A DNA stretch of 45,613 nucleotides from positions 1-45,613 of IMG/VR virus record IMGVR_UViG_3300042914_001405; one strand, given 5' to 3'. This stretch comes from a virus. Below, piece by piece: positions 6,180-29,100 of the stretch (positions are counted from its first letter, which is position 1; each line of letters starts with the position of its first letter). The notes beneath the pieces are model-generated. The model saw nothing but the letters and a program-made list of their open reading frames with translations. It did no database searches and had not been told where the DNA came from. Position numbers and translations under genes: made by a program.

Positions 6180-8589
6180 GAAGTGTCTCTAGTAGTTCTT
6201 TCTGACCCTCTAAGAACTTATAGAGAATATCTTCATTACTAGGCTTTACCTTTTTACCACTTACAAAAGGTAATTTTAATCTATCAAGTGATCTAACAGT
6301 AGCAGATGGAATCTTAACAGAGTATTTTGTATCTCTTACAGCACCATCGGTTCCTTCAAATTTAAAAGTTAGTTCTCCAGCATTTGTTACAAACTTAACC
6401 TGTGATCCAGAAAACTTTAATTGTGTAGAAGGATTGAATGTGCCTTGCTTTAATTCATCAAATAAAGAATTAAACATGGCATTACTATCATAAGCTAGTA
6501 AATTTTCTCTTTCATCTGTGTGAAATGTTACAGCACTGTCTTTAGAATACCCACAAAATCCAGACATTTTTGCAAGAGTCTTAGCCGCTAAAACTGCTTT
6601 TTTAGGATCTTGAATATCCCTTTTAAGAATATTAAGACGTTCTCTTCTTGCAATAAACTCACCTAAGCGTTGTCTTAATTGATCATGCTTAAAGTCTTTT
6701 ATCTTACCTTCTTTATCTTTAAGAAGACTATTAAGTTCTTTGTCAGTTAATTTATATCCTGATTTATCTGACAGAATTTTGGCAATATCTTTACAGGTTT
6801 TTTCCGCTGACTGAACTTTTATTTTTCCTTCTACAGTTACTAAAACTTGATCTTCTACTAATAAAGCTCTTTTCTTTTGAACTTGATCTTCTAAATCATT
6901 AAAATAATTTAAAGATGCCATCTCTTCTTGAGGGCTACTAAAAAGCTTTTCATTTATTTGTTGATTTATATCTACAGAATTAGGATTCTCTCCAGTATAG
7001 TTTGCTCGCATTGAAGCTACAGAACCAATCTCTCCTGGTTTTCCTTCTTCTATTGACTGAGTAAATTTCTGACTAACGGCTACTTTATATAAAAACCTCA
7101 TTTGATCAGGTGTGCTATTTTTTGGATCAATTACTTTGCTAACTTTAATTCCAAATTGATCGGCAAATTTTCTGGCTCTAACTTCATCTGTGTAAACAAA
7201 CACGTTATCGCCCTTCTTACCAGTATCAGCAAACTCACCTGAATAAACTTCTGTTCCAGTATGTTCTGCATAATCAGGTCTAGCTATATCTTTAACCTTT
7301 ATCATGCTCCTCATTACACTCTTAAAAAAAGCTCTAAACTTAGGAGAAGTAATATCAGATAGCAGATTGAACATTTCCTGATTAGCCTGTCCTATGTTAG
7401 CAGTCTCAATATCAGTAGCTAGATTACCTCTCTGTTCAATAAAACTTACTAATTTTTCTAATTGTCTTCTTTTTCTTTTTACAAATACTGCAAAAGTTTT
7501 TTTAGCTTCAGCAGCCCTAGCTGGATCACCAGAAGATAGATTAGAAACAAGGGATAATACTTGTTCCGCAAACTTACCTTTTAGGTCATTCAAATACTTA
7601 TTTTCTATTACACCTGATTTAACAACTTCTAAAGTGGTTCCAAGTTCAGAACAATTTCTATTTTGTTTTAATCTTTCTAATGCAATTTTTTGTAAAGCAT
7701 TAGGTCTAATTACAACACCTTCATTTCTTGTTGCTCCGAAAAGAACTATACGACCATCACTTTCACTATTGTAGTAACCCACTCTATCTTCTACAGTATC
7801 ACAAGAATTTTCAGATACGTCATCTGATAGATATGACATTAATGCATTATTAGATTCTGTTACTGCGTGGAGTAGGGATGGATTTAATTGACCTTCAACA
7901 AGATTACCTTGACCATCATCAACAAGTCCAATACCATTAGCTAACTTATACTCAAAACTTTCTGGATTATTAGCTGTTATGAAAGGAAGTATTGTTTGTT
8001 GATTATATTTTTGTGATAAATTTTTATCATTCTTAAACCAAGTTGAACCTAACATTCCTTTAGCGTACTCTGCATCACTTTTTATATTTTCTAAAGTTGC
8101 AGTATCAGCACCTATATTGGTTAATTGAGCACCTGGTTCAGCAGCGGCTGCTTCTTGTTGCTGTTCAACTGCGGTTTGTTGTTGTCTTACTAATTCATCA
8201 GCTTTTAACTCAGGATTTTCATTTTTTTTATCAACCTCACCACGCATAGCATCATACAAGGCATTTAAAATTTCATCTTGAGCTTTTTTATTTAAAGGTT
8301 TTCCTTTAGCATTTAATGTTTCTAAATTTCCCTGAGGATCTAATATGGTCATTTGTGTATGACCCGTTAAGACAGTTACTCCTCCATTTTTTGTTTTTTT
8401 ATATTTAAAGTTGGATAATCCAGGATATTGCTCAGATTGTATTGGGCTTTCGATTTCCGAGGCTTGCATTAAAATTTGTCTAAGCTCTTGAAACGCAGGA
8501 TTCTCAGCTTGCTCATTAATATAAGTGAGCTTAAATGTGCGCTTCTTTAGCTTATTGTAGCTGTCTAATAATTCTGAAAAGTAATCCAT
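6163..8589 (-). CDS. Large uncharacterised protein (808 aa), possible head-internal protein
   Basis: I do not recognise a family. The protein is 808 residues and mostly charged and helical, with a Gln/Glu/Ala-rich stretch near residues 130-155 and several basic segments (for example 'FVKRKRRQLEKL' near residue 370). No membrane segment, Walker motif or metal-binding motif is evident. The N-terminus contains YINE-Q at residues 23-27, which fits the (I/L)-x-E cleavage rule of T4-type prohead proteases, so it could be packaged in the head and trimmed. That is inference. It lies alone between a hairpin (8610-8646) and a convergent nuclease gene. A CTATAATA box sits four bases before the ATG, with no Shine-Dalgarno, so it appears to be its own transcription unit. 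Confidence 0.85.
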   Translation of the reverse strand: MDYFSELLDSYNKLKKRTFKLTYINEQAENPAFQELRQILMQASEIESPIQSEQYPGLSNFKYKKTKNGGVTVLTGHTQMTILDPQGNLETLNAKGKPLNKKAQDEILNALYDAMRGEVDKKNENPELKADELVRQQQTAVEQQQEAAAAEPGAQLTNIGADTATLENIKSDAEYAKGMLGSTWFKNDKNLSQKYNQQTILPFITANNPESFEYKLANGIGLVDDGQGNLVEGQLNPSLLHAVTESNNALMSYLSDDVSENSCDTVEDRVGYYNSESDGRIVLFGATRNEGVVIRPNALQKIALERLKQNRNCSELGTTLEVVKSGVIENKYLNDLKGKFAEQVLSLVSNLSSGDPARAAEAKKTFAVFVKRKRRQLEKLVSFIEQRGNLATDIETANIGQANQEMFNLLSDITSPKFRAFFKSVMRSMIKVKDIARPDYAEHTGTEVYSGEFADTGKKGDNVFVYTDEVRARKFADQFGIKVSKVIDPKNSTPDQMRFLYKVAVSQKFTQSIEEGKPGEIGSVASMRANYTGENPNSVDINQQINEKLFSSPQEEMASLNYFNDLEDQVQKKRALLVEDQVLVTVEGKIKVQSAEKTCKDIAKILSDKSGYKLTDKELNSLLKDKEGKIKDFKHDQLRQRLGEFIARRERLNILKRDIQDPKKAVLAAKTLAKMSGFCGYSKDSAVTFHTDERENLLAYDSNAMFNSLFDELKQGTFNPSTQLKFSGSQVKFVTNAGELTFKFEGTDGAVRDTKYSVKIPSATVRSLDRLKLPFVSGKKVKPSNEDILYKFLEGQKELLETLLKITR

Positions 8590-8593
8590 GATA

Positions 8594-8601
8594 TATTATA
8601 G
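8594..8601 (-). promoter_or_regulatory. CTATAATA promoter-like box
   Basis: On the minus strand CTATAATA is followed by TATC and the ATG at 8589. It matches the minus-strand reading of the palindromic elements at 4597 and 5651. It lies directly downstream of the hairpin that ends the tail tube transcript. No -35 sequence is evident, which fits a sigma lacking region 4. The role is inferred. Confidence 0.5.
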
Positions 8602-8609
8602 ATAAGCAG

Positions 8610-8646
8610 AATAGCCCAGCCCGCAACTAGTACAGGCTGGGCTATT
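8610..8646 (-). terminator. Hairpin, probable terminator of the capsid-neck-tail operon
   Basis: A perfect 12-base-pair stem (AATAGCCCAGCC paired with GGCTGGGCTATT) has a 13-base loop. It lies 19 bases past the tail tube stop. No long T run follows on the minus strand, so termination may be incomplete or the hairpin may protect the mRNA 3' end. Confidence 0.75.
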
Positions 8647-8665
8647 ATTTAATACTAACTAACGA

Positions 8666-9256
8666 TCAAGGGTTCGAGTAATTGTATACGTTCATGAAAT
8701 CATACTTGAAGTTAACTGTTAACTGGTGGAATCCCTGAGTTGAATAGTTAAATTCAGATGCACTCCATGAGGTAGGATAAACTCCGTATAACTCTATAAC
8801 TGAGTGAGGTGTTAAAGTGTTATCTAACATAACAACTTCAACTTTATCAGCCTTGAATGTGCTTCCAGCAGTACCTCCTGGTTGCGCTCTCTTTGTCATT
8901 TCTCCAGTTAAGGGATCGAGAGTATTTCGGAAGTAACGGAAAAGATCAGAAGCTGTTTCACGAAGATAAAGGTTATCGAAGTCTACAGTTAATTCTCCTG
9001 GTGTATTCTTACCAGGATAGTGAACTCTATCGTTAACTCTTTCTACTGTGATTGGCTCATTTTTCATTTCTAATCCACCAACCTTCTTAGCAGCTAAGGT
9101 TAGATCAGCAGTATTAGAAACTTCTGGAGGTAATCCGAAGAAGTGAATTTCAAACTGATAGGTTCTTACTGAGTCTAGATCAGTTGATATTACTGGAAGA
9201 CCTTGACCTGGAGTAAAAGTTCTTCCGTACTTTGTTTTATAGTATGATGTTGCCAT
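8666..9256 (-). CDS. 19: Tail tube protein, gp19-like
   Basis: This 196-residue protein polymerises into the inner tail tube through which DNA passes. It has the gp19 layout: an N-terminal arm, 'TYQFEIHFFGLP' at about 32-43, 'ERVNDRVHYPGKNTPGELTV' at about 77-96, and a C-terminal 'LTVNFKYDFMNVYNY' strand. The length is close to T4 gp19 (163 residues) with a somewhat longer middle loop. The start at 9256 has AAGGAT upstream. It directly follows the sheath gene, as in T4, and ends the operon before the hairpin at 8610-8646. Confidence 0.92.
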   Translation of the reverse strand: MATSYYKTKYGRTFTPGQGLPVISTDLDSVRTYQFEIHFFGLPPEVSNTADLTLAAKKVGGLEMKNEPITVERVNDRVHYPGKNTPGELTVDFDNLYLRETASDLFRYFRNTLDPLTGEMTKRAQPGGTAGSTFKADKVEVVMLDNTLTPHSVIELYGVYPTSWSASEFNYSTQGFHQLTVNFKYDFMNVYNYSNP

Positions 9257-9267
9257 TCAGATTATCC

Positions 9268-11448
9268 TTATAGAGAGCCTAACTGTGCTGATTGATTAGT
9301 TAGGTTAACCTCGAAGATTAAGATTTCAGCAGTCTTTGTGGGCTTAATTAAAACCTTAGTCCACATTTCATTACGATCAACTCGTAATGGTGTATTTGTT
9401 GTTTCATCACAAACAACTCGGAACTCTGTAATTCCTCTACGTCTACGGATATCATCGAGGAATGGATTGAGAACACCTTCAACTTGTGCCCAAGTAAATT
9501 CATCATTAGGCTCGAACACAAATCTTTGAGTTGATAGAAGAATTATCTTTCTTATGTAGATCATTAGTCTACGAATGTTAATTCTGTCTAGAGCAGTTGG
9601 AGATCTTTGAGTGGTTCTCTGACCAAAGATTGTAATACCTTGTTGTGGGAAGGATACTATTGGGTTAACAACATTTCCACCACTGTACATTGTATCTCTA
9701 TCGCCTTGATTAAGCTTAACTTCAACCTCTGTTGGTTTAGTTAAACGACCCCTGCGGAAACCTGCTGGAGCAAACCAGCTATCAGCTACTGCATCGGTGT
9801 ATGCCATTTGACGAGCAGCAAAGATAGTTGGATCATACCAACGATCCTTACCATCAAATACTGAGAAGACCTTTACCCAAGGCCAATATACAGCAGCGTA
9901 TGAGCTATTGATAGCTGCTGTTCTTTGGTTTGCAACACTTGTGGACTTTCCATTAGTCCAATCAATAGCATCTTGAACTGTTCCTACTGCATATGGAGGA
10001 GCTATTAGTGCCATGAAGTTTTGAGATGTTTCAGCCAAAGTAATTAATGCATTTTGGACAGATTGAGTATGAATACCTGGAATTAAAGCGATTCCTATGT
10101 TTAATGTAGGATCATCCAAGGATTGCATACCTGTCTTTGGAGTTACCGAAGCATTACCTATTAGTGCTGTATCAGCAGTTGCAGATTCATCACCATTAGT
10201 TCCACCTGTAAGTGAATAGGTTCCTCCAAGTAATTTTGCAAATCTACCACCACCGTCTGTGGTATTTACAATAGTTGTTGCAACTCCAACACCAGTTGGA
10301 TTATTAACAGGTTCTAACCATTGATGTGTTGCATTAAAAGGACCAACTCCAACTAATGTGTTTATTAAACCTCCAAAATCTGAAAGTTTAGTTGTTGTAG
10401 CATCAGCACCAGCTTTAATCAAGTAACCTTTTATTACCTCAGAAACAGGATTGGTAGTTCCAGTGTTAATTACATCTTCAATAAAGTTTCCGCTACCAAC
10501 AAAACTTACCTTAAAGTTTTCTAAAGCAGTACCTTCTTCATTAACTACTACAGTAAAGTTTTGACCTCCTACTGGTGATAGCGTTATTGAGTTTCCACTA
10601 GCGTCACCGTTTACAGTTACTCCTGTATTATAACCTTTTCCAGGATATAAACTTTCTACTAAGTAAGATAATGAATTTGTTCCTGTAACTGGGAATGTTG
10701 CTCCATAAACTCTTACAGCAGATGCAAAACTTCCAGAAACACCTAGAGTTGCGTTTCCTGCACTTGGAGAATAAACTGCTCTTAGTGCGCTAACTCCAGT
10801 CCCACCAGTGAATGATGTGGATTCTACGGCAGAAACACTAATTGATGCTTCTGATCCAGCATAAGCACCAACTATAAGAGCAGAGGTTCCAGTGGAATAA
10901 AATGAAACGTGATCTGTATCTAATCCAGTTCCAACAATTCTTTGAAGTGCTTGAAGCTGTGTCGAGGCTGTTCCAGCAGGGATTGTAAAATCTCTACCTG
11001 CTCCACCGTTTTGAGTATATTTTGCAACACCATCATTATCATATACTTGAATTCTTAATGTAAGATTTCTGCCCCCAGTAGCACCAAATCCCGCAAGTCC
11101 AGTGCCAGTGATAGTAGGACCACTAACAGCAAAAGTAGGGCAGGTGCCTACTGCTAGATAAGCAGATGCATCGGTAGCAGTTGAATCGTTAGCCGCTCTT
11201 ACAAAGTATAGCGAATTTGTTTGTTCTAGAATTTCTAAAGCACCTTCAAGACCTTGACCTAAGATATCTTCTGAAGGATTACCGAACGTCTTTAAAAGGT
11301 TAGTTTGGCTTGTAATTAAAGTTGGCGTATTAGTTGGACCTTTAGAAGCAAAACCTACGATACCAACTACTGAAGTATTAATAGAAGGTGCGTAATCTGA
11401 TATATCTTTTTCAATGGTGTATACACCAGGGCTAACAAAATTTGGCAT
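9268..11448 (-). CDS. 18: Contractile tail sheath protein, gp18-like
   Basis: This 726-residue protein forms the contractile outer tail sheath. The N-terminus 'MPNFVSPGVYTIEKDISDYA' and the following 'SVVGIVGFASKGPTNTPTLI' are typical of T4-type sheath proteins. The C-terminal domain (about 500-726) has the conserved 'NIRRLMIYIRKIILLSTQRF' and 'TWAQVEGVLNPFLDDIRRRRGI' segments that interlock subunits. Residues from about 90 to 420 form a Gly/Thr/Ser-rich insert that may be surface-exposed. It is slightly longer than T4 gp18 (659 residues). AGGAG precedes the start at 11448. It lies directly upstream of the tube gene. Confidence 0.95.
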   Translation of the reverse strand: MPNFVSPGVYTIEKDISDYAPSINTSVVGIVGFASKGPTNTPTLITSQTNLLKTFGNPSEDILGQGLEGALEILEQTNSLYFVRAANDSTATDASAYLAVGTCPTFAVSGPTITGTGLAGFGATGGRNLTLRIQVYDNDGVAKYTQNGGAGRDFTIPAGTASTQLQALQRIVGTGLDTDHVSFYSTGTSALIVGAYAGSEASISVSAVESTSFTGGTGVSALRAVYSPSAGNATLGVSGSFASAVRVYGATFPVTGTNSLSYLVESLYPGKGYNTGVTVNGDASGNSITLSPVGGQNFTVVVNEEGTALENFKVSFVGSGNFIEDVINTGTTNPVSEVIKGYLIKAGADATTTKLSDFGGLINTLVGVGPFNATHQWLEPVNNPTGVGVATTIVNTTDGGGRFAKLLGGTYSLTGGTNGDESATADTALIGNASVTPKTGMQSLDDPTLNIGIALIPGIHTQSVQNALITLAETSQNFMALIAPPYAVGTVQDAIDWTNGKSTSVANQRTAAINSSYAAVYWPWVKVFSVFDGKDRWYDPTIFAARQMAYTDAVADSWFAPAGFRRGRLTKPTEVEVKLNQGDRDTMYSGGNVVNPIVSFPQQGITIFGQRTTQRSPTALDRINIRRLMIYIRKIILLSTQRFVFEPNDEFTWAQVEGVLNPFLDDIRRRRGITEFRVVCDETTNTPLRVDRNEMWTKVLIKPTKTAEILIFEVNLTNQSAQLGSL

Positions 11449-13283: not shown

Positions 13284-13772
13284 CTATTTGCCTCTATATG
13301 TACCTTTTTCTACACTCTTTGTAGAAGGTTGATCAGGAAGCTCTTCTCTCTTAGCTGCTCCACCAGCATACTTAATGTCTGCCGCAAGACCAGCTACGCC
13401 CTCTTCACCTGTTCTCTTCGACTTATATCCAACCTTAACTGGACCCATAGCTTTCTTAATAGCCGCATCTTGTTTTGCAGACTTAGCTCCAGGATCCTTG
13501 CTTGCAGGCTTTTCTTTAATTACTGATTGAGGATTCTTTCTTGCTTTTGCTCTTTCAGCAGCGGCACGAATACCTTCCATATTATCAGCCTCTTCTATTG
13601 ATAGTCCAAGTGCTTCTGATAAATAAAGACCTAATTGGTGATATACTGTCCAACCTTCTTGCATTTTTTTCTTTCCTTTTGCGCTTTTTAAACGTCCAGC
13701 AATAACGTCACCTCTGGTAACTTTATCGTATGGTGGATATAATGCAGCTAAATCTTTGTTTCCTTTTTTCAT
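13284..13772 (-). CDS. Basic protein with capsid-targeting-like motif, possible internal head protein
   Basis: This 162-residue protein is rich in Lys, Ala and Gly, with no recognised domain. Residues 44-55 carry YHQLGLYLSEAL, the same motif found in the 112-residue protein at 17358 and the protease C-terminus. Cutting after E53 (L-S-E|A) would fit the T4 prohead protease rule. The remainder (residues 54-162) is basic and probably disordered, like T4 internal proteins that bind packaged DNA. It lies between neck genes, so a neck or connector role is the main alternative. AAAGGA precedes the start ATG. Confidence 0.72.
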   Translation of the reverse strand: MKKGNKDLAALYPPYDKVTRGDVIAGRLKSAKGKKKMQEGWTVYHQLGLYLSEALGLSIEEADNMEGIRAAAERAKARKNPQSVIKEKPASKDPGAKSAKQDAAIKKAMGPVKVGYKSKRTGEEGVAGLAADIKYAGGAAKREELPDQPSTKSVEKGTYRGK

Positions 13773-13781
13773 AATAATCCT

Positions 13782-14660
13782 TTAGAATAATGTGAACACT
13801 GGTGGTTCTTCAATTTCAGATAGAAGCTCTTCTTTGAGCTTTTCTTTCTCCTGTTGGCTTGCTTGTAATAAGTCCTTGCCATTTAAACTAGCACCACCTC
13901 CAGGAGAAGGAAGTGAACTATACTTACCTCTAACCTCACCAAGGATCCCCTTAGCAACAGCAAGAGCATATCTTTGTATCCAGTTTTTGTAGTATGGATG
14001 CATTGTTCCTGTATCCAAGCCACGATATACTAATACTACAGTTTCTCCATTCATAGCTGGAACTGGGTATATCTGTAATATATTTCCATTTATTATATCC
14101 CAAGTACCTTCTTGACCTAGAATCTTTCTAATCATTTCTAGATGCATCTGCATCAAATAAAAATCTGACACAGCTAAATCTCGGAATAAGAAGTTGTCTT
14201 GGAAATATTTAATAAAGAAATCGAACTCTAAAGTACCAGCTTGATTTTGTAAGCTTAGTAAAGATTTCTTATAGGTGCAATAAGCAAGACCATTAGCTAT
14301 GTGTGTCGGTAGTCTGTACATATTTACACCAGCGGTTGTTCCAAATGTAGCCATTTGTGTACACCAGAATGGAGCATGATAATCAAGATTAGTTATTGCT
14401 TCATCTATCGCAGTCTTTATTTGAAAATCTGTAAGTTCAACACGGACTACAGGATGTCCTAACCTTGCTAATAAGAAGTCTCTAATAGATTTTTCAAATC
14501 TATTTAATTCAACACCATCATCAAAAGTTCCGTTATTTAATTTAGAACTGTCGATAGCGGTAGAGTAAATGTCAGTGTCACCTAGATTCATACCTGCGTA
14601 TGCTCCAAAGGTATCACCGTATCCTAATAAATAAGGATCTACTCTAGGTGCTGAGATCAT
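13782..14660 (-). CDS. 13: Neck protein, gp13-like
   Basis: This 292-residue protein sits where gp13 is expected, just before the gp14-like gene. The segment 'FLLARLGHPVVRVELTDFQI', followed by 'KTAIDEAITNLDYHA' (about 62-96), is the adaptor-type pattern in which a helix precedes the V-x-V-E-L-T-x-x-Q-I-x-x-x-I-D-E-A signature. A later beta-rich part (190-215, 'GNILQIYPVPAMNGETVVLVYRG') and a C-terminal Glu/Lys-rich helix follow. In T4, gp13 attaches to the portal and gp14. Overlap with the 65-residue gene upstream is 17 bases. Assignment rests on this signature and gene order. Confidence 0.7.
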   Translation of the reverse strand: MISAPRVDPYLLGYGDTFGAYAGMNLGDTDIYSTAIDSSKLNNGTFDDGVELNRFEKSIRDFLLARLGHPVVRVELTDFQIKTAIDEAITNLDYHAPFWCTQMATFGTTAGVNMYRLPTHIANGLAYCTYKKSLLSLQNQAGTLEFDFFIKYFQDNFLFRDLAVSDFYLMQMHLEMIRKILGQEGTWDIINGNILQIYPVPAMNGETVVLVYRGLDTGTMHPYYKNWIQRYALAVAKGILGEVRGKYSSLPSPGGGASLNGKDLLQASQQEKEKLKEELLSEIEEPPVFTLF

Positions 14661-14841
14661 ATACTTCCTTTATTTTACGTTTTTTATTAGGTTCTTCTAA
14701 TTTTTCTTCAATTATTAATTCTAAATGTCTTGAATCTATTAATTCTTTTGATTCAAATAATTCTGATGGTCTTATTTCTACTATATTTCCATCAACATAT
14801 AGGAGCATATTCCATCTACATTTACTTCTGTATTTATACAT
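14644..14841 (-). CDS. Small hypothetical protein (65 aa) downstream of capsid gene
   Basis: This small protein begins MYKYRSKCRWNMLLYVDGN and is rich in Glu, Lys and Ile in its second half ('ELIIEEKLEEPNKKRKIKEV'). No family was recognised. GAGGT lies five bases before its ATG, and its end overlaps the gp13-like gene by 17 bases, so both appear co-translated. It is the first gene after the capsid terminator hairpin, and a TATAAT lies just upstream (14851-14856). Confidence 0.68.
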   Translation of the reverse strand: MYKYRSKCRWNMLLYVDGNIVEIRPSELFESKELIDSRHLELIIEEKLEEPNKKRKIKEVYDLST

Positions 14842-14850
14842 ACTACCTCA

Positions 14851-14856
14851 ATTATA
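14851..14856 (-). promoter_or_regulatory. TATAAT box upstream of neck genes
   Basis: TATAAT on the minus strand is followed by nine bases (including GAGGT) and the ATG of the 65-residue gene. It lies 12 bases past the capsid hairpin, the same hairpin-then-box layout seen at 8594-8646. If used as a -10 box at ordinary spacing, much of the ribosome binding site would be lost, so its role is uncertain. Confidence 0.35.
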
Positions 14857-14867
14857 TAGGAACCAGA

Positions 14868-14901
14868 GAGGACCAAGGGAGTAAAAATTCCCCTGGTCCT
14901 C
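14868..14901 (-). terminator. Hairpin downstream of major capsid gene, probable terminator
   Basis: A 13-base-pair stem with one mismatch (GAGGACCAGGGGA against TCCCTTGGTCCTC) has an eight-base loop containing five T on the transcript. It follows the major capsid stop by about 30 bases. A T tract after the stem is lacking, so some read-through into the neck genes is likely. Confidence 0.7.
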
Positions 14902-14910
14902 ATGTTATTA

Positions 14911-14933
14911 ACTAATAACTATCAGTTATTAGT
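14911..14933 (-). other. Hairpin overlapping the capsid stop codon
   Basis: Ten perfect base pairs (ACTAATAACT paired with AGTTATTAGT) have a three-base loop. The stop codon of the major capsid gene (14929-14931) lies inside the stem. With the stronger hairpin at 14868-14901 it forms a double structure, which may stabilise the capsid mRNA 3' end. Confidence 0.6.
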
Positions 14934-16623
14934 AACCCATTACTGATGTGCCTTGGATTCTATTCGTTGTATTTCTAGAGAAAGGTTGGAATAGATAGTT
15001 GGCAGTAGGTCCGACAATTCTGATGATTCTGTAGAATCTGTTAAATGGTTGGATCTGTACCTTACCATAGCGGGTGAGGATACCCTTTCTTGGTTGGAAG
15101 GTTTCAGGATCCGTAATTGTGGGTAGCTGTTGTAGTGGGATGTATGGAGCATAGATAAATCCTGAATCCATAGCATTTGCACCCTTATAACCAATCATAA
15201 TCTCGTCAGTTGGATACATAGGATCAACATAGAGATCATAACGACCCATGAACTTGCCCTTATACTCAATGCTATTAGCAGTGATGTTTGTTGGGCCATC
15301 TTCACGCTGGATGCCACCCTCTAGTTTAGATGCACTTTCTAGTAGTGAGCAAACTAGTGGTGATGTAAGAATCCAGTTACCAGGACCACGCATTGTGGTA
15401 CGGTAAATATCTTGTGAAGCAAGGTTAATGAGTGCTAAAAGGTTAGCATATACTTCACCAACGTGACGAGCATAGAATGCTGGGCTTGACTGAGTGAAGT
15501 CGATTACAAAGATGTTTGAACCTGAAGAGGTTAGAATACCTGGCATCTCTGTGCTAGCTCCAGCACCAGCAGCACCGTTAAAATCATAGGTGAACTGGTT
15601 AGGTATAAAAGTTTCAGCCGCAGCACCGACGGTGCCATCTTGCTTTAGACCTGGGAACCCGTTTAATGTAACATAGTTGTTGTCCATTAGGTTTTGGTTT
15701 ACACCACCGAGGGTTTGTCCACGAAGACCGTAAGCGATCATACGAAGATCTTCGATGAGTTCGCGGTCTATTTCGAGTTGAAGTTCCTTCGAGAGGAGGT
15801 CTGTTAGCTCGCGCTCTAGATCGAGATTGTGGTAAGCCTTAAGGTCTTGTGAAGCCTCAAGTGTCCACAATGCACGCATCTTACGAGTGTTAGCAACAAC
15901 AGCTTCTTGCTCGATGTGGAAGGTCATCTCAGGAATGCCTGTTCCATCTAGACGCTCACCACCTGAGATGCTAAATCCGTAGATTGCGTTTGATAGAGGC
16001 CAAGCAGCTATCTGACCACCCATTGTACCTGATGCAGCACCAGCACCAAAGATACCAGCAGTGCCAGAAAGTGTAGCTAGTACGTTGGAAAGGTCGAAAC
16101 CGCTAGAAGCAAAGTCTCCATCTAAACCTGGAGTTCCTGTGGCAGTTCCTATGTAAGAACCATCAGCGTTTCTAAAGGTGTTTTGTGCTGCTGCGCGAGG
16201 AGTGTTGTTAGATTCAGATCCAATTGGCTGTGCAGTTAGACCACGATAGGTCATATTGTACTTGCTATAAACTGGTTGAATATCCGTAGGTGAGGCTCCA
16301 CCTCTCTTAGCACGGCTGTTTCCAATGTAGAATACTTGTGAAACTGGGCCTTGCATAGGCTGAACACCAACGATCTTGTTGGCGATTAGTTCTGGGTAAA
16401 CTCTACGAACTAGTGGGAAGGCGAACTTTTGAAATACGCCTAATTGACCAGTTGTAGTAGTAGCAGCCGAAATAGCTTCATCCATTCGCTCTTGAACGAC
16501 AGACTTAGCTTGGTTCTCTAGAAGTTGAGCCGTAACACGACGAGTGTACTCGTTGCCGATGCCCTCAAGGACAGGCTCCCACTTCTGGACCAACGAATCA
16601 TCAGTACGATGCATTATATCCAT
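14929..16623 (-). CDS. 23: Major capsid protein, gp23-like
   Basis: This 564-residue protein forms the hexameric head shell. The N-terminal 'LVQKWEPVLEGIGNEYTRRV' matches the T4 gp23 'LLNKWKPLLEGEGLPEI', and 'FPLVRRVYPELIANKIVGVQ' (69-88), followed by 'PMQGPVSQVFYI', corresponds to 'VRRAIPNLIAFDICGVQPMNSPTGQVF'. The C-terminal part contains 'GRYDLYVDPMYPTDEIMIGYK' near 460-480. T4 gp23 is trimmed after Glu65; here the candidate cuts are after E36 (LLE|N) and E49 (MDE|A), and both are inferred. The start has AAGGGA eight bases upstream. It follows the scaffold gene by 16 bases and ends in two hairpins. Confidence 0.96.
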   Translation of the reverse strand: MDIMHRTDDSLVQKWEPVLEGIGNEYTRRVTAQLLENQAKSVVQERMDEAISAATTTTGQLGVFQKFAFPLVRRVYPELIANKIVGVQPMQGPVSQVFYIGNSRAKRGGASPTDIQPVYSKYNMTYRGLTAQPIGSESNNTPRAAAQNTFRNADGSYIGTATGTPGLDGDFASSGFDLSNVLATLSGTAGIFGAGAASGTMGGQIAAWPLSNAIYGFSISGGERLDGTGIPEMTFHIEQEAVVANTRKMRALWTLEASQDLKAYHNLDLERELTDLLSKELQLEIDRELIEDLRMIAYGLRGQTLGGVNQNLMDNNYVTLNGFPGLKQDGTVGAAAETFIPNQFTYDFNGAAGAGASTEMPGILTSSGSNIFVIDFTQSSPAFYARHVGEVYANLLALINLASQDIYRTTMRGPGNWILTSPLVCSLLESASKLEGGIQREDGPTNITANSIEYKGKFMGRYDLYVDPMYPTDEIMIGYKGANAMDSGFIYAPYIPLQQLPTITDPETFQPRKGILTRYGKVQIQPFNRFYRIIRIVGPTANYLFQPFSRNTTNRIQGTSVMGY

Positions 16624-16639
16624 AAATTAAATCCCTTAT

Positions 16640-17284
16640 TTATTTTTGGGAGAAGGGCATGAACTTCATGACCTCATCAGTTAAAAAGGCATTTCTTTGT
16701 TGGTAAGCCTTTTCTTCGTTAATAACTTTATCCGCTTTGGTTACAACGACAGCTTGTTCAGAGGACTTAAAAGCCTCGTCCCGAGCAGCGACAAGATTCT
16801 CGACCTCTTCGAGAAGCTGTGCCTTTTGACCCTTAAGTTTCTCAACAGTACCCTCCGATAGGGTAACTTTATCTTTGAGAACCTTAACTGTGTTTTGAAG
16901 TTTTTCGTTTTCAACGACAAGCTTGTTAACTTGTTCGGTTAAAACATCAAACTCTTCCTGAAGTTCACCATGTTGATTGGTCATTTCAGAAAGAGCATTA
17001 TCTTCATCACCATTGTTAAGTTCTAGAGCCATTAAAGTTCTTACCGATTCAAAGAGACGGGCATTACGGAATACTTCGTTCTCCTCACTTAGCTCAGTAA
17101 GAGCTTGTTCTTTAAGCTGATCTACTTTGGTTCTTAGATAGGCATTAACTTTTGCCTCAAGTAAACCAATCTTCTCTTCGACTTGCTCATTAATTGTAGC
17201 GTCTACTAATTGGAAAATAGCTTCAACAGTAGACTGGTCAAGTCCTTCGGGAAGAATATCAGCAATATTCTTTAATTTATTCAT
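16640..17284 (-). CDS. 22: Prohead scaffold (core) protein, gp22-like
   Basis: This 214-residue acidic protein is almost entirely predicted coiled coil, with heptad-like runs from about 30 to 180 ('EEKIGLLEAKVNAYLRTKVD', 'VNKLVVENEKLQNTVKVLKD'). The position between protease and capsid genes is that of T4 gene 22, whose product forms the temporary prohead core and is then degraded. AGGAGA precedes the start at 17284. A 73-base AT-rich gap (17285-17357) separates it from the small gene upstream and could hold a promoter ('TTAATAGATATATTT' on the minus strand). Sequence similarity to gp22 is weak, as is normal for scaffolds. Confidence 0.8.
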   Translation of the reverse strand: MNKLKNIADILPEGLDQSTVEAIFQLVDATINEQVEEKIGLLEAKVNAYLRTKVDQLKEQALTELSEENEVFRNARLFESVRTLMALELNNGDEDNALSEMTNQHGELQEEFDVLTEQVNKLVVENEKLQNTVKVLKDKVTLSEGTVEKLKGQKAQLLEEVENLVAARDEAFKSSEQAVVVTKADKVINEEKAYQQRNAFLTDEVMKFMPFSQK

Positions 17285-17357
17285 GAATAATCTCCTAGGT
17301 TAAATATATCTATTAATGATTCTTTAAAAAAATAAGTTTTTTTAAAAAATGTATGCG

Positions 17358-17696
17358 TTAGCGTCCTGAATACCCTTTGAATTTAGTTTCAGGACTAACA
17401 GGTTTACGTTTACCCGTTTTGGGGTCTGAACGAGGAAGTTCATGCTGCTCACCTCTAGGGGTTTTTGGACCACTCGGTTTTTCTTTAGAATATTCAAAGC
17501 TGCTAAGTTTTGCACCCTTTATAGGTCTACTTCCTGTAATGGAAGGTTTATCTGAATCAGTAGACCAATCACCTCTACGCTTACGTTCTTTTACACTTTC
17601 ATCTGGATCAGATGGAAGTGGTCTTTCAGAAGTTTTTTCTACTAAATTTAAAGCTTCAGCTATTAAAAATCCTAAATGTTTATAAGTATTATACAT
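17358..17696 (-). CDS. Small basic protein with N-terminal capsid-targeting-like peptide
   Basis: This 112-residue protein begins MYNTYKHLGFLIAEAL, strikingly like the T4 internal protein leader MKTYQEFIAEA, which targets proteins to the prohead and is cut after Glu. Here the predicted cut is I-A-E|A at residues 12-15. The rest is highly charged, basic and rich in Pro, Ser, Lys and Arg, with no hydrophobic core, as expected for a DNA-associated internal head protein. It lies between the protease and scaffold genes. The shared motif at residues 5-16 also occurs at 13608-13643 and 17903-17938. The function in the host is unknown. Confidence 0.75.
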   Translation of the reverse strand: MYNTYKHLGFLIAEALNLVEKTSERPLPSDPDESVKERKRRGDWSTDSDKPSITGSRPIKGAKLSSFEYSKEKPSGPKTPRGEQHELPRSDPKTGKRKPVSPETKFKGYSGR

Positions 17697-17698
17697 AA

Positions 17699-19231
17699 TT
17701 AATCTTTTTCGCCTTCTCTTTTCTTAGCCGCTTTTTCCCATTGATCAGCACGCTTGGTAGAAGTTTTAACTTCTTTACCACTCGTTGTTAATACCTTTTC
17801 TTCGCCTTCTTTTCCTGTTGGACTACGGAACACCGAAGCCTTACCTCCTGCTTTTTTTGGAGTTGACACCATACCAAATTTAGCTTTACCTATTTTGGTA
17901 AACAAAGCTTCTGCTAAAACTTTACCAATACGAGCATATTCAGTGTGTGATAGTTGTGCTTGCTGCATAACTCCTAAACCTGTAGTGTCAGGTTCAGCGG
18001 GCGCTGTTTTGCTTTTCTTTTTTATTTTTTGTTTAGGTGCTGCGGACATTGGAGATGCTTTACCTCCTGCTACAGCTAATCTAGCTTGAAGTGCAGGATT
18101 TTGAGAACCCGTAGAAGATTGTGGTCCGCGAGCCGCTGCTACTTGTTGATCTGATTTTTGAGCAGCTTGAGAGCGTGCTCTCATAGCTTGAATACCTTTT
18201 CTAGCAAGACCTACTGCTCCTTTACCTACTACTGCTCCTGCTTTTGCAGCCATACTCGCTCCAGCTTTGGCGTAATCCATTTTAGTAACAGGTTTGCCCT
18301 GTGCTGCTCTATCTTTAATTCTGGCTGCGGCAACATCACCTAATGCAGCACCCTTTGCTCTAGAAATTTCCATATTTCTAGCGTGTCTTTGTGCTCTCCA
18401 GTTAGACCACATACCACCTTGATCTTGCGCTGGGCGTCCAAACGTACCTTGCCCTTGCAATCTATCCTGACGAGATTTTTCTAATTCATCAGCAAAGGCT
18501 TCATTAATTAATATGTTAGCTATATTTTTATAAGCATTTATTAGATCAGGATTTAATTCTTCTTCAGATTCCTGAAGTTTCTTTTTCATTTTCTTTGGCT
18601 TAGTATAGCAAGACTTTTCTTCTAAAATAGGCTCATATGCTTCACGAAGTTTAGAACGAAGCATTGTTACAAAATTACTTTCTTTCTGTAACTTAGATTG
18701 TGATTCTCTTGCAAAACGTGATTGAGTAGATTCAGCTAGTGTTGGGAACGCACCTCTTGTAGATGGATCAGCTACAAGATCAAATGTAACTAGTCTATAA
18801 TCTTCATTAACGATTTTATTACCTTGGGCATCCTCAGAGAGTGTACCCATACCACGGGAAGAAATACCAATACGAACGCCACCATCTATTAAAGCCTTTG
18901 CAGTTAAACCAGCAGGGGTCTTAAGAATCTCTGCTTCACCTATGAGTTCATTACCCTTTATTTCAAGCTTCGTAATTAAGTGAGAAGCATTGGAAAGTTT
19001 TACAGTATCGTTAGATGGGTGATCTAATTCACCACAAAGTCTACGCTCTTGAATTAAAGGTTGAACTTTCTTTAGCTGATTTTCTAAAACAGTTGTAGGA
19101 TAAATACGCCCGTTATTGTTCTTCTCGTTGCAACGACCGAAGACACCACGGATTCTCATGGTATCTCCAGCCTTACCTTCAGTAAGAACCTGTAAATTTT
19201 CTACTATGAATACGTCTTGTATTAACTGCAT
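17699..19231 (-). CDS. 21: Prohead core protease, gp21-like, with long basic C-terminal extension
   Basis: Residues 20-170 form the gp21-type serine protease that matures the prohead: 'NNGRIYPTTVLE' (39-50), catalytic His71 in 'GELDHPS', Ser124/125 in 'GISSRGMG' and 'DLVADPS' at 151-157. Beyond it are about 340 extra residues that T4 gp21 (212 residues) lacks: an Ala/Lys/Gly/Arg-rich tail with alpha-helical 'AAAR' and 'KKK' runs. The tail contains Y-A-R-I-G-K-V-L-A-E-A-L at 432-443 and a looser 'YKNIANILINEAF' at 234-246. Candidate self-cuts of (I/L)-x-E type are after E167 (LAE|S), E244 (INE|A by the rule) and E441 (LAE|A). The tail may be a second scaffold or cargo domain released by the protease itself. 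The start overlaps the previous stop (TAATG). Confidence 0.9.
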   Translation of the reverse strand: MQLIQDVFIVENLQVLTEGKAGDTMRIRGVFGRCNEKNNNGRIYPTTVLENQLKKVQPLIQERRLCGELDHPSNDTVKLSNASHLITKLEIKGNELIGEAEILKTPAGLTAKALIDGGVRIGISSRGMGTLSEDAQGNKIVNEDYRLVTFDLVADPSTRGAFPTLAESTQSRFARESQSKLQKESNFVTMLRSKLREAYEPILEEKSCYTKPKKMKKKLQESEEELNPDLINAYKNIANILINEAFADELEKSRQDRLQGQGTFGRPAQDQGGMWSNWRAQRHARNMEISRAKGAALGDVAAARIKDRAAQGKPVTKMDYAKAGASMAAKAGAVVGKGAVGLARKGIQAMRARSQAAQKSDQQVAAARGPQSSTGSQNPALQARLAVAGGKASPMSAAPKQKIKKKSKTAPAEPDTTGLGVMQQAQLSHTEYARIGKVLAEALFTKIGKAKFGMVSTPKKAGGKASVFRSPTGKEGEEKVLTTSGKEVKTSTKRADQWEKAAKKREGEKD

Positions 19232-19650
19232 TATTTATACTTCAAACCTCGTTCTTTCTTAATAGATCTGCTTCCGTATTGTTGAGCTAACTTGTCAGAA
19301 CCTTTTCCATATCGTAGTTTTGTTCTAACAGCGTGCTTCTTGATGCTACTCCAACCAGCAGAAGGTGTTGCACTTCCTGGAGTAAATCCTTTAGCAATCT
19401 TACCCCGACCGCTCTTAGCGCCCCACTTACCTTTTGAAATTACATATAGTCTACCAGCAGCTTTTGTAGTAAAGATTTCTCCGTACTGACCATCTGATAA
19501 TGCATTACTAATGCTACCATATGTTTTAACTTTGCCTTTAAAAGACTTCTTAATATCACGCTTGGTTCCTTCTTTTGAGGCATAGGTTTTTCTACCCTCT
19601 ACAGAACCTCGCGCCTCTAAAAGACCTTCAATAGACTCAGTTATTTTCAT
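19231..19650 (-). CDS. Basic head-region protein (139 aa), possible internal head protein
   Basis: This is a 139-residue, very basic protein (Lys/Arg/Gly/Ser rich) without a recognised fold. The N-terminus MKITESIEGLLEARG contains L-L-E|A at residues 10-13, a fit to the prohead protease rule, suggesting a short leader is removed. Residues 55-80 ('YGEIFTTKAAGRLYVISKGK') look beta-stranded. The start overlaps the previous gene's stop as ATGA, and its stop overlaps the protease start. The gene's place in the prohead core cluster supports a head role. The specific job is unknown. Confidence 0.72.
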   Translation of the reverse strand: MKITESIEGLLEARGSVEGRKTYASKEGTKRDIKKSFKGKVKTYGSISNALSDGQYGEIFTTKAAGRLYVISKGKWGAKSGRGKIAKGFTPGSATPSAGWSSIKKHAVRTKLRYGKGSDKLAQQYGSRSIKKERGLKYK

Positions 19651-20144
19651 TTCTTTAGTCTTGCTTTAATAGAAGCCTTTAAAACTTGAGAACGAGACTT
19701 AGGTGCTGGTGTAGCTTTCTTGTATCCATACTTAGCTTCTACCTTTTCAAAAGGAATATCCTTTTGCTTTTGAGGCCCAGCTAAATTGACACCTATACTA
19801 CCTGTGGTGGTCATTTCTTGTAGAAGCTCTATTACTTGTTGTAGAAGGGGAACTAACTCTTGTGCAGTCTCCTCAGTCATTAGTTGAGGTTCTTGCTTAG
19901 GCTCATTTCCTGCCCACACAAGCTCTGGCATACTGTCTACAGGTTCAGCATCTTGAGGAGTAAACTGCTCCCCGAGTATCTGTTTCATGAATGAATCAGG
20001 AACTTTGACCTTAGAAATATCCTTACCAGCAGGTGCTAATCCTGCCTTCTTAGGAGCAGATGGAGGTAACTCCTTACCGCTCTTAATGTTACTCACACTT
20101 TCTTGTATGAGTCTTTCTGCGAAGTCTCCTATACTTCCCTTCAT
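19647..20144 (-). CDS. Prohead core-region protein (165 aa), unknown function
   Basis: This 165-residue protein is acidic in the middle and basic at the end ('SQVLKASIKARLKK'). The N-terminus MKGSIGDFAERLIQESVSN contains I-Q-E|S at 13-16, another fit to the prohead protease cleavage rule. The segment 'VKVPDSFMKQILGEQFTPQD' (47-66) and an amphipathic helix near 92-110 ('ETAQELVPLLQQVIELLQEM') suggest helical assembly. AAGGAG lies nine bases before the ATG. It is next to the protease in the head cluster, at the position of T4 genes 67/68, but I see no sequence identity to those proteins. Confidence 0.68.
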   Translation of the reverse strand: MKGSIGDFAERLIQESVSNIKSGKELPPSAPKKAGLAPAGKDISKVKVPDSFMKQILGEQFTPQDAEPVDSMPELVWAGNEPKQEPQLMTEETAQELVPLLQQVIELLQEMTTTGSIGVNLAGPQKQKDIPFEKVEAKYGYKKATPAPKSRSQVLKASIKARLKK

Positions 20145-20163
20145 GAGCAGGTACTCCTTTTCC

Positions 20164-20688
20164 TCACTCTTCTTCGACTACTTCTTCGTCTTCGTCTAGA
20201 GTTTCGGTATCGTCTTGAAGAAGGATTTCCTTGATGGTTTGATCAATTACAGCCTCAACATCCTCTTCACCTTCGTTTAGTTGGCTTAGACGCTCAACTA
20301 GACCCATGATTACATCGAGGTGCTCAAGGAGACGCTCTTCTTCTAGAGCTTCTTCTAGCTGTGAGGTGCAAAGTGGGCAAACGTGAGTCTCCTCTGCAAG
20401 CTCTTCAGCATCATCACCGTCTTCTACTTCTGTAGAATCATCCATCTTCTCTTCTTTCTCTTCTTCTTTCTTCATCATTTTCTTGATGAGCTTCTTATCT
20501 TTAGCCTCATCAGGATGACCCTTCTTCTTCATAGCCTTTTTAAGACCAGGAGGAAGACCCTTCTTCTTCTCTTCAATAACCTCTTCTGAGGCTGACTCGT
20601 CTAGACGAGTTTCAACACCAGCCCTGCTCCACATGGCTGATTCAATAAGTTTTTGACGAAGTTCGTCGCTAAGTCTAACGTGATCCAT
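20164..20688 (-). CDS. Charged prohead core-region protein (174 aa) with CxxC motif
   Basis: This 174-residue protein alternates strongly basic (residues 40-72, 'KKAMKKKGHPDEAKDKK' and KK runs) and strongly acidic parts (75-97 and the Asp/Glu C-terminus from 157). One CPLC motif at 103-106 could be half of a metal site, but no second pair is present. The helix 'EERLLEHLDVIMGLVERLSQ' (117-136) is amphipathic. N-terminal 'LRQKLIESAMW' resembles head-protein leaders only loosely. It is the first gene of the head cluster, preceded by a hairpin and an AT-rich gap. AAAGGA precedes the start. The low sequence complexity fits a scaffold-like role. Confidence 0.66.
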   Translation of the reverse strand: MDHVRLSDELRQKLIESAMWSRAGVETRLDESASEEVIEEKKKGLPPGLKKAMKKKGHPDEAKDKKLIKKMMKKEEEKEEKMDDSTEVEDGDDAEELAEETHVCPLCTSQLEEALEEERLLEHLDVIMGLVERLSQLNEGEEDVEAVIDQTIKEILLQDDTETLDEDEEVVEEE

Positions 20689-26171: not shown

Positions 26172-29100
26172 TAGTTATCTCTCGTTAGATCAAATATTGA
26201 AGCTGACTTGAATCCGACTGATCCACTTGTATCACCATCATACATTTCTGAAGATCTATCAGTAGAGCCATAAGCTCTGTGAATTGTAACCTTCTTCGGT
26301 CTTCCTGAGAATCCTAGGCTCGCGTTCTGAGCATTAGCAAATGTCCTAGCAGCAGATTCATCAAGAGTACATTGTGTTGGATTATCTTCAAGCATCTCTG
26401 AACAATAATAGAATCCAGAGGTCCATAAAGTATCTGCAACACCATCACCATTATTATCTACCAACTTTAGTAAATCAGGATACAAGGAACTAACATTTGT
26501 AGCCCCATCTGGAATTAACGCTGATAGTGGTGCAGAACAGTTATAACCTTGTGCAAAGATTTGATAAGCAGGTCCAACCACACCAGAGAAGTTACCCCCG
26601 TGTGGGAACGCACCGTTGGTATAACCACTTAAATCATTAGCTAGAATCTTAGCACTAGACTTAGGACTCCAATAAATTCTAAATATACCTTTATTATTAA
26701 AGGTATTATTTGGACCTAGCTGGAATTTAGTATTCATACTGTAATTTAATCCAGCACCACCAATTCTAAGTTTTTGATTAGCACTTTCAGATCCAGTAAC
26801 TAGATGGAATCTATTAAATGGTGAATTAAGCGAGACTCCTGATGGAATAATCCAAACAGAGCTACCAGCACCATAGAAATCTAGTATACTTAAATTTCCT
26901 GTATCTGGAGTCGATTGAGGTGCTCCAGAAGCTATTGTGTATCCAGCCCCACCATTCGAGGATACCCAGAATGCACTAGGACCGTGATAAATTGTGTCTG
27001 CTGGGTGAAGACCACTAACTGAAAGGTATGCAGCGTTCAAGCGTGATGTATCTGCTATATTCCATATCAGTAGTTTATCACAATCACTTCCACTGGCATT
27101 ATAATAAATACCATCTAGATTTGATGAGTTTGTGGCAGCAGGGAAGTGAACATTCCTAACATTAACAACGCTGTTTCCAACTGCACGAACGCAAGTACCA
27201 CCCTTTGATCTAACTGATCTATTGGTGTAATTTGGAGTTGTATTAACAACACCATCAGATACTATCTTAGTATAGACTGCACCATCTGTTGTACTAAAAG
27301 TTGGGATATTTAAATCATATGGACCTGGATCAAATCCATCAAGACCATTAGTAGTTATAACAGTATCATTTTGTGGATTAGGATAGAATTGTAAAGAACC
27401 TGAAGCTGTGTATGCACTTAAATTAAAATTAAAAGTAAAGAAATCATCTCCAAGTGCTAAGTAGTTTACACCTGTAGAAGCTCTAGGCCAATTCTTTCTA
27501 TAATCTCCTAAATCTAATAAGTTTATAGTTGAATTTTGATTTGCAACTAAACACGCTCTTGTTGAATGTAATTCAACGTGAGTATGATTATTACCTGCGC
27601 TTAAGTTAAACCCACTAACATCTAAGCCATAACGATCTTTTGTTTTTGGAGGTTCTATATTTAGAACTGAATTATTTTCAACAAGAACATCAACACCATA
27701 TTGTCCTATTACAGTAGGACCATGAATATTGATTGTTGAATTATTACCTCCATAAATACCAGCAGTCCTCTTTTGATAATTCAAATCGTCATTACCGATT
27801 ACATAAGTACAACCTGTTTTACTTCCAAATAAAGAAGCGTTAGAAGAATTTACAGCTTTTATAAATCTTCCATAATTAATTCCATATTGGTCTGATATAA
27901 ATGTGTATGCTTTAGGGTGTAGTAATTCTAATGTAGAATTATTTTCTACCATTATAGCAGGATACTTATGATCAGTAATAAATCCGTGATCTTGAGCAAA
28001 ATAAGTATTCCCATAATTATCTGGAATCTGGTCTTTTCTTTCAAATCCGAAGAAGCTACCGTTTTTTAGATTTATATGTTGTCCATTAGAAGACATATCT
28101 AATTGCCAACGTCCACTCTGACCAGCGGATCCTGGATTGTATGAGGAATTCCAAATGAATATAGAATTCCTACTTGTGATACCTTCTTTTTGTTGAGAAT
28201 CTATTGTTAGTTCTTGGAATTTAAACTCAGATGATTCTGCATCTATTCCTACTCTATTTCCATAAATATCAACTAATCCTAAAGTATTAACAATAGAGTT
28301 ATTTAACTGAATTCCAAATCCTGTATTAAGCTCTGATACTAAAATGCTTTGTGAAGATGTATTCGTAGGGAGTATACGCTGTTGACCACCAGTCAATTTG
28401 GAGTTATGTAAAACAAATCCTGCGTAATTTCTAGATGCTACTATGCAGAAATCCCCTCCAGAAGCTCCAACATCTCCTACACTAGTTGAAGTTACATCAT
28501 ACTGATTAGAGCTTAATATTACTTCACTGTTAATTATATTAAATCCAGTACCCTTTTCAGCTATTCTAGCTGTGCTGCTTATATCATAATTTCTGTAAGA
28601 ATATGCTGATCTAGATAAGATAACTTTTGAGTTATTAAATCTAAATCCAGATTCTTTATTTCTAACGCTTGTACAATTTTCTAATACTACATTAGAATTT
28701 TTAATATCAATTCCAACCTCTTGAGTGTTACTACTATTAACAAAGAAGTTTCTTATGAAGATAGGCCCGTCACAGTTTTCTACAACTAATTTTGTTAATT
28801 TATTAAGATAAATATTTCCAGTAGCATTTTCTGATGTAGCTACCGCAGATCTTTTTATAAAAGATCCATCAAATTCTGAAATAGCACTAATATCATAAGG
28901 ATAGATAGTTGGATCCGTTGATAAGCTTTCAAATACAAAACCAGCAGCAACTCCAAAACTATTAGCAGTACCTGCTGTAATAAATCTATCTAAAACTACA
29001 GAAAGGGGCGCTTTTCTATATCCATGATTTGCATAATAAATTAAATTAGAATTTAATTGACTTGATAATCTTTGGTCTGAGCTACCACTAACCAGGTTAC

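Follow-up and report, generated by a model that had tools for sequence, protein, structure and literature searches.

The window, as the whole stretch of DNA analysed here is called, comprises the 45,613 nucleotides (45.6 kb) of the virus record IMGVR_UViG_3300042914_001405 and carries a run of structural genes of the T4 type. The minus strand specifies, among others, a gp21-type prohead protease, a putative gp22-like scaffold protein, a gp23-like major capsid protein and two small basic proteins of 112 and 162 residues (aa). The protease and both basic proteins contain a motif of 12 residues, Y-x2-[IL]-G-x2-[IL]-[AS]-E-A-L, which is referred to as the tag and numbered from its tyrosine (Y0). 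The features are listed in Table 1.

Table 1. Tags and associated features of the window
Feature	Position	Strand	Evidence or remark
gp21-type prohead protease (S77) with long tag-bearing tail	17699..19231	-	Peptidase_S77 1.9e-24; phrog_207 1.5e-51
Tag in protease C-terminal region, residues 432-443, YARIGKVLAEAL	17903..17938	-	strict motif and profile
Degenerate second protease copy, residues 234-246, YKNIANILINEAF	18494..18532	-	below profile acceptance in the window
112-aa basic tagged protein, slot between protease and scaffold	17358..17696	-	candidate cargo by tag, charge and place
Tag at N-terminus of 112-aa protein, residues 5-16, YKHLGFLIAEAL	17649..17684	-	strict motif and profile
gp22-like scaffold, candidate docking partner	16640..17284	-	named by position and weak coiled-coil-like matches only
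gp23-like major capsid protein	14929-16623	-	Pfam Gp23 1.5e-79, 268.6 bits (cut-off 24.4)
[LIM]-x-E of capsid protein (MDE, residues 47-49), where its propeptide is likely cut	16477..16485	-	conserved in homologs
162-aa basic tagged protein, slot between two neck genes	13284..13772	-	candidate cargo by tag, charge and place
Internal tag of 162-aa protein, residues 44-55, YHQLGLYLSEAL	13608..13643	-	strict motif and profile
YFSELLD, residues 3-9 of 808-aa protein, T4 spacing Y-x3-L-x-[ED]	8563..8583	-	D in the window, E in relatives

The Peptidase_S77 match of the protease reached 86.7 bits against a Pfam cut-off of 27, and many columns of its catalytic domain were invariant across 24 aligned sequences. 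Among the matches listed, the capsid protein showed about 30% identity to its counterparts in the nearest annotated phages. The gp15-like neck gene, with a Pfam T4-gp15 match, specifies a product of 247 aa. The labels tail tube, sheath, scaffold and those of the other neck genes are our assumption from gene order and general knowledge; the scaffold gene, for which 36 homologs (30 distinct) were found, is located between the protease and capsid genes. No Pfam or PHROGs family was obtained for the 112-aa protein at E 0.1, and none from PHROGs for the 162-aa protein, whose Pfam matches were all below cut-off.

A six-frame search of the window with the strict motif gave exactly three matches, all on the minus strand and at precisely the positions which an initial annotation had listed. 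From the composition of the 39 window proteins 5e-5 copies were expected, and 2000 shuffles produced none. In pairwise BLASTP comparisons, the 112-aa and 162-aa proteins aligned best at the tag itself (E 0.002). The 112-aa protein and the protease gave weak matches (E 0.08, 0.13 and 0.38), of which that with E 0.13 falls on the tag and that with E 0.38 on a degenerate second copy within the protease, and for the 162-aa protein and the protease the best match (E 4.9) was away from the tag. Since only the tag or weak matches were detected, the three proteins are otherwise unrelated, in agreement with the initial annotation. The degenerate copy had not been included in its list; counterparts in the middle region of related proteases are better kept than that of the window, for example WHQIAYALAEAF or YYRLGNLIAEAF.

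Relatives of the window, all known from sequence alone and none known to be complete, were collected with the protease as query and by blind scans with the motif. The protease retrieved 29 viral contigs, giving 30 records with the window (918 kb, 950 called open reading frames, ORFs), of which 28 also contain a capsid-protein match. In these records the motif was present 11 times in its strict, 31 times in its middle and 34 times in its loose form, while 20 shuffles gave 0, 0 and 0.1 on average. The blind DNA scans covered 2.9 million viral contigs. The pattern Y-K-x-I-G-x2-[LF]-A-E-A was detected in seven stretches, six of them in contigs already known; in the seventh, L083, it is outside any called gene and window homologs are missing. 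The pattern Y-x2-hydrophobic-G-x2-hydrophobic-A-E-A-hydrophobic-G yielded 57 stretches, eight in previously found loci or contigs of the group and 49 in new loci. Homologs of window head, neck or tail genes are present at 41 of these new loci, ten of which belong to already-known contigs, while seven have no window homologs and one, L087, has a polymerase match only and was counted as chance. Thus, 49 of the 57 stretches are inside the phage group and eight outside. Single-sequence searches of viral contigs with the 162-aa and 112-aa proteins returned nothing, though homologs exist in L006 and L008, and no relative was obtained when bacterial and archaeal genomes were scanned with the capsid protein.

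For a more sensitive description, a 19-column profile was built in three iterations from the seed Y-x2-hyd-[GA]-x2-hyd-[AS]-E (hyd, hydrophobic; 98 places) on 1264 ORFs of 61 records, a set excluding the nine chance loci and ten loci from contigs already included. The profile accepted 132 copies (102 distinct) scoring above the maximum of the last-round shuffle (one shuffle per protein), which corresponds to a threshold of about 10.9. The shuffle of the previous round peaked at 14.1 on its own matrix, and four accepted copies score lower; a copy accepted in a tail-like G019 protein is probably a false positive. No reversed protein scored above 8.0 on the final profile, so that none was accepted, and in the head regions of T4, S-SSM7, Melnitz-2 and LR756511 the best scores were 4.4 or less. 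Records found by the motif are biased to its strict form, and those found without it were used as the unbiased subset. Near-duplicates, such as G022/G023, G024/G025 and G016/G019, are among the records.

One kind of protein carrying the tag is the prohead protease. A copy in the C-terminal region is present in 24 of the 30 protease ORFs of the protease-retrieved set, the exceptions being G010 (contig end), G028 (gene in pieces), G020, G013, G014 and G029. Y0, G4 and E9 were each found in all 20 copies of this region after reduction. A second, diverged copy between catalytic domain and tail was accepted in 18 cases, mostly with W for Y and A for G, and this middle copy is without E in 5 of 11. 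Six proteases (G012, G018, G024, G025, G027 and L106, the G set comprising four distinct sequences) end 3 to 7 residues past the Glu; therefore, there is no passenger to release. An 85-aa ORF in L029/G028, equal to the protease tail, was considered as an unfused form of it and dropped, because in-frame stops in the capsid gene and a fragmented protease mark the G028 contig; it is still counted among the 28 reduced cargo copies described below. In this contig, which contains L029 and is probably error-rich, seven in-frame stops break the capsid gene (15853-17505).

The second kind of carrier is a group of basic proteins regarded as candidate cargo. The gene between two neck genes, that of the 162-aa protein in the window, is tagged in 37 of 41 records and in 21 of 24 if only motif-independent records are counted. 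Copies were missed in G018, G027, G028 (broken contig) and L109, where a gap of 17 bases holds no gene; the slot ORF of G027 was skipped in the count since it overlaps the neck gene, but a weak copy with a score of 11.3 is present. The slot gene is fast-changing and rich in Lys and Arg, and its tagged products vary in size (104 to 527 aa) and in the module at the amino end, of which there are several. For 61 distinct cargo proteins, the net charge is +0.10 per residue with 22% K+R, compared to -0.015 and 11% for the other 1010 ORFs (Mann-Whitney p 4e-30), and hydrophobic residues account for 20% versus 34%. Seven cargo proteins from relatives matched no Pfam or PHROGs family at E 0.01. The N-terminal part of the 162-aa protein is similar to a 619-aa protein which is found in two cyanophages and has no tag (one of these phages was examined), and the MPLTSKG-type module to an untagged 119-aa protein of phage HMO-2011; the modules therefore occur also without the tag. 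Between protease and scaffold, a tagged gene was detected in the window, G005, G006/G007 and G028, and an untagged ORF in G024 and G025. Judged from the place of their genes, the carriers would be internal head proteins.

Five tagged genes are located outside the head cluster, two in G009 and one each in G006, G015 and G019. Those of G015 (20068-20325) and G019 (15174-16166) are found on the opposite strand among split polymerase genes, resembling mobile cargo genes.

The initial annotation had proposed a common tag on head-cluster proteins that may be internal and even on the protease itself, and had named its absence from homologues as a point that would count against it. The motif is kept in the relatives, so this proposal stands. 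A protease copy and a cargo copy are both present in 21 of 30 records. Most copies are internal (114 of the 132 accepted), while 11 begin no further than residue 20 of their protein and 7 have their end among its last 20 residues. Among 98 tagged proteins 66 have one tag, 30 have two and 2 have three, that is, 32 carry more than one.

Column information was determined for 49 reduced copies with Y at position 0 from motif-independent records. Apart from Y0 (4.8 bits, fixed by this selection), E9 (3.9 bits) and G4 (3.5) were most informative, followed by A8 (2.7), [LI]7 (2.4) and [IL]3 (2.3), and the columns Q/R2, K1, A10 and [LMF]11 with about 1.9-2.1 bits. Y0, I3, G4, L7, A8 and L11 share one face of a helix. 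Thr or Asn is frequent two residues before Y0, as is Gly-Leu after position 11, and these look like helix caps. In low-confidence AlphaFold models, the protease tag is part of a helix of residues 422-450 and the tag of the 162-aa protein part of a helix of residues 31-55.

The end of the tag has the form [LIM]-x-E, often followed by A. The same form was detected in the capsid protein, where all 32 homologs that extend over this region have it (13 others do not reach it); it is followed by D in 15, by A in 13, and by V, S, N and G once each. T4 gp23 has LTE at residues 63-65, and the two sites were taken as equivalent by place, without alignment; T4 gp23 is described to lose 65 residues (PMC9958956). 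In the tags, E9 is present in 27 of 28 cargo copies and in 20 of 20 copies of the protease C-terminal region. It is followed by A, G or S in 19 of 28 cargo copies (A in 18) and in 9 of 20 protease copies, the latter having Met in 7, T in 2 and I in 1; the difference between cargo and protease is not significant (Fisher p 0.14). With A, G or S in only 9 of 20 protease copies, cutting alone hardly accounts for the conservation of the tag. Cleavage of the tag after Glu, as implied in the initial annotation, is plausible but not supported in that form: conservation exceeds that of a cleavage site, and the residue after Glu varies in the protease copies. From the sequences, cutting appears likely for many cargo copies and doubtful for those of the Met type.

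The capsid targeting sequence (CTS) of T4 internal proteins, reportedly described by Mullaney and Black in 1996 (cited in PMC9026906 and PMC9958956), is among the closest known parallels. T4 IPII and IPIII both start with MKTYQEFIAEA, and the likeness of this leader to the tag, as noted in the initial annotation, extends to a hydrophobic residue three positions past the Tyr, to a hydrophobic-Ala-Glu-Ala end, to the presence of a gp21-kind prohead protease, and to fast-changing basic proteins otherwise little alike as carriers. Unrelated and basic carriers are seen here as well, their location inside the head being suggested by gene place only. Spacing is where the likeness ends, since Y and E are 6 residues apart in T4 and 9 in the tag, about one helical turn more, with hydrophobic-x-E at +4/+6 and +7/+9, respectively; the tag is therefore not the T4 leader. 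In addition, the CTS is N-terminal and about 10 residues long, whereas the tag is mostly internal and repeatable, and G4 is nearly invariant in the tag. With neither N-terminal place nor T4 spacing, the tag is CTS-like in logic, but not a CTS. According to mutagenesis data in PMC9026906, CTS residues 4 and 7 (Y, F) serve mainly targeting and residues 8 and 10 (I, E) processing, and Asp at position 10 blocks processing but leaves targeting intact. The same two halves are offered by the tag with Y0 and [IL]3, then [LIM]7 and E9. According to a T4 review (PMC9958956), other core proteins do not share the CTS, whereas in the phage group described here the protease shares the tag with cargo.

Protease tails of other phages are also comparable. 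In the giant phage SPN3US, a C-terminal extension of the protease gp245, autocleaved after Glu (PMC7411985, PMC10052503), is proposed by the authors to target the protease to the prohead: without 26 of the 64 residues of this propeptide the enzyme is active in vitro, but the shortened protease is absent from mutant proheads or very rare (PMC7411985). Its cleavage motif, AXE, is different, and the available text of PMC7411985 and PMC10052503 reports no sequence shared with cargo. The C-terminus of T4 gp21 is AYMALAEAMKKAL (NC_000866), with a Tyr, a hydrophobic residue and then L-A-E-A-M at the protease end; its spacing is shorter, and the profile gives only negative scores for the T4 head region. 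A targeting role of the gp21 propeptide is a published suggestion (PMC9026906). For phage P1, a short signal of DarB is described to suffice for sending a reporter into the head; it differs from the tag in being N-terminal (PMC9024508). Aquatic 'moraphages' are described as jumbo phages with T4-like head genes (PMC12619734). Word searches of open-licence papers revealed no description of the motif in titles or abstract openings, which is not proof of absence.

From these comparisons we infer that the tag is probably a docking helix taking cargo and protease into the prohead core, and that it often also holds a gp21-type site, [LIM]-x-E followed by the cut. In a group of uncultured T4-superfamily phages, a short transplantable helix would direct proteins to the prohead core, its face formed by Y0, [IL]3, G4, [LI]7, A8 and [LMF]11 binding a core partner, most likely the gp22-like scaffold. 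The tag in the tail of the prohead protease would serve its own packaging, and the unrelated basic cargo proteins would be taken along by their one to three tags. In many copies the helix end [LIM]-A-E, followed by A, would double as a protease site, and the cut would free the cargo from the core for ejection. Several observations weigh against this interpretation. Proteases without any accepted copy exist (G013, G014, G029), that of G020 has only a diverged middle copy lacking E, and the slot gene of G018 has no accepted copy. The Met, Thr and Ile frequently following Glu in protease copies are not seen at the capsid site. Mean pLDDT values of 51 for the protease and 52 for the 162-aa protein make the AlphaFold models too poor to base an argument on. 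Moreover, part of the conservation of Y, G and E stems from the seed pattern itself, and copies from homologous proteins depend on one another, a kinship which the shuffles ignore.

It is conceivable, though clearly less probable than docking combined with frequent cutting, that the helix targets proteins to core or shell and remains uncut, E-A being part of the binding surface. The 11 of 20 protease and 9 of 28 cargo copies without A, G or S after Glu would fit such a function, as would the middle protease copies devoid of E, but the retention of [LIM]-x-E-A in 18 of 28 cargo copies, matching the conserved capsid site, argues for processing. That the tag is purely an extended recognition site or linker, by which polyproteins are split and tails trimmed with no docking, is improbable. 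Near-invariance of E9, the [LIM]-x-E kept in the capsid protein and the multiple copies in 32 of 98 tagged proteins are consistent with it, yet Y0 and G4 are conserved about like E9 far upstream of the scissile bond and have no counterpart at the capsid site, variable residues follow Glu in the proteases, and next to nothing would be released from the six short-ended ones. Slightly less likely still is another partner or place, such as neck, portal, membrane, virion RNA polymerase or a DNA-condensing complex, with the head genes as mere neighbours. A cargo slot flanked by two neck genes, basic proteins that could bind DNA and the tagged genes outside the head cluster point in this direction; against it, the prohead protease, the sole tagged protein whose kind is known, works within the prohead, and the tagged or propeptide-bearing proteins of T4 and SPN3US are head proteins. 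Chance, or a generic amphipathic helix, is refuted by the controls, for although the motif is short, some blind-scan stretches are outside the group and the G019 tail-like copy looks false, the expected number in the window is near zero, and neither the reversed proteins nor the head regions of T4, S-SSM7, Melnitz-2 and LR756511 reach the acceptance threshold.

Carried further, docking and cutting could constitute a modular head address code, which is put forward tentatively and is rather unlikely to hold in full. One helix, movable anywhere in the chain, would serve the protease and a fast-changing basic arsenal, and any gene gaining it would become head cargo. Proteins with two or three copies would be polyproteins, anchored and cut at each tag in the prohead and delivering peptides with the DNA, and the T4 leader and protease tail would be shortened relics.

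The placement of some proteins in the T4 prohead core has been called mysterious (PMC9958956). A tag common to the protease tail and to unrelated cargo is comparative evidence for one entry route and bears on how the prohead protease enters the head; with the same element on both, the group unites the T4 CTS and SPN3US stories. The motif offers a way to spot likely head cargo among unknown phage genes and is perhaps useful for loading proteins into phage heads.

A second, shorter motif with T4 spacing, Y-[VILF]-x2-[LF]-x-E, is also carried by cargo ORFs and by the 808-aa protein of the window (6163-8589), which has no family assignment. It was present at 50 places compared to a shuffled mean of 10.3, and at amino ends in 17 of 1133 compared to 0.24. 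Since homologs of the 808-aa protein account for 15 of the 17, with two other proteins making up the rest, they represent nearly one event, and the excess over shuffles is no fair statistic. The 808-aa protein starts with MDYFSELLDS, its relatives with MDYFSELLES or MDYFSDLMES. With this leader-like start, it may be a large internal head protein. Within some cargo ORFs (for example G015 8466-9644, G004 7785-9158 and G019 27029-28021), a Shine-Dalgarno-like run, for instance GAGGAAACAAAAATG, and an in-frame ATG directly precede the second motif (MNxxYIxKLME and kin), which suggests fused genes or internal translation starts.

Other genes of the window and its relatives showed further peculiarities. 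Upstream of the protease (19231-20688), [LI]-x-E-[AS] is present close to the amino ends of three small proteins (139, 165 and 174 aa), the last of which also contains a CPLC cysteine pair; they are possible core proteins resembling T4 gp67/gp68. A family A DNA polymerase is split in the window (3586-4596, 3107-3586 and 2029-3135): one ORF fuses a uracil-DNA-glycosylase-like part to a 3'-5' exonuclease, the polymerase domain has an ORF of its own, and a 159-aa ORF in between has no Pfam match. In G009 (57345-67190), the gp15-like neck gene is embedded in an ORF of 3281 aa.

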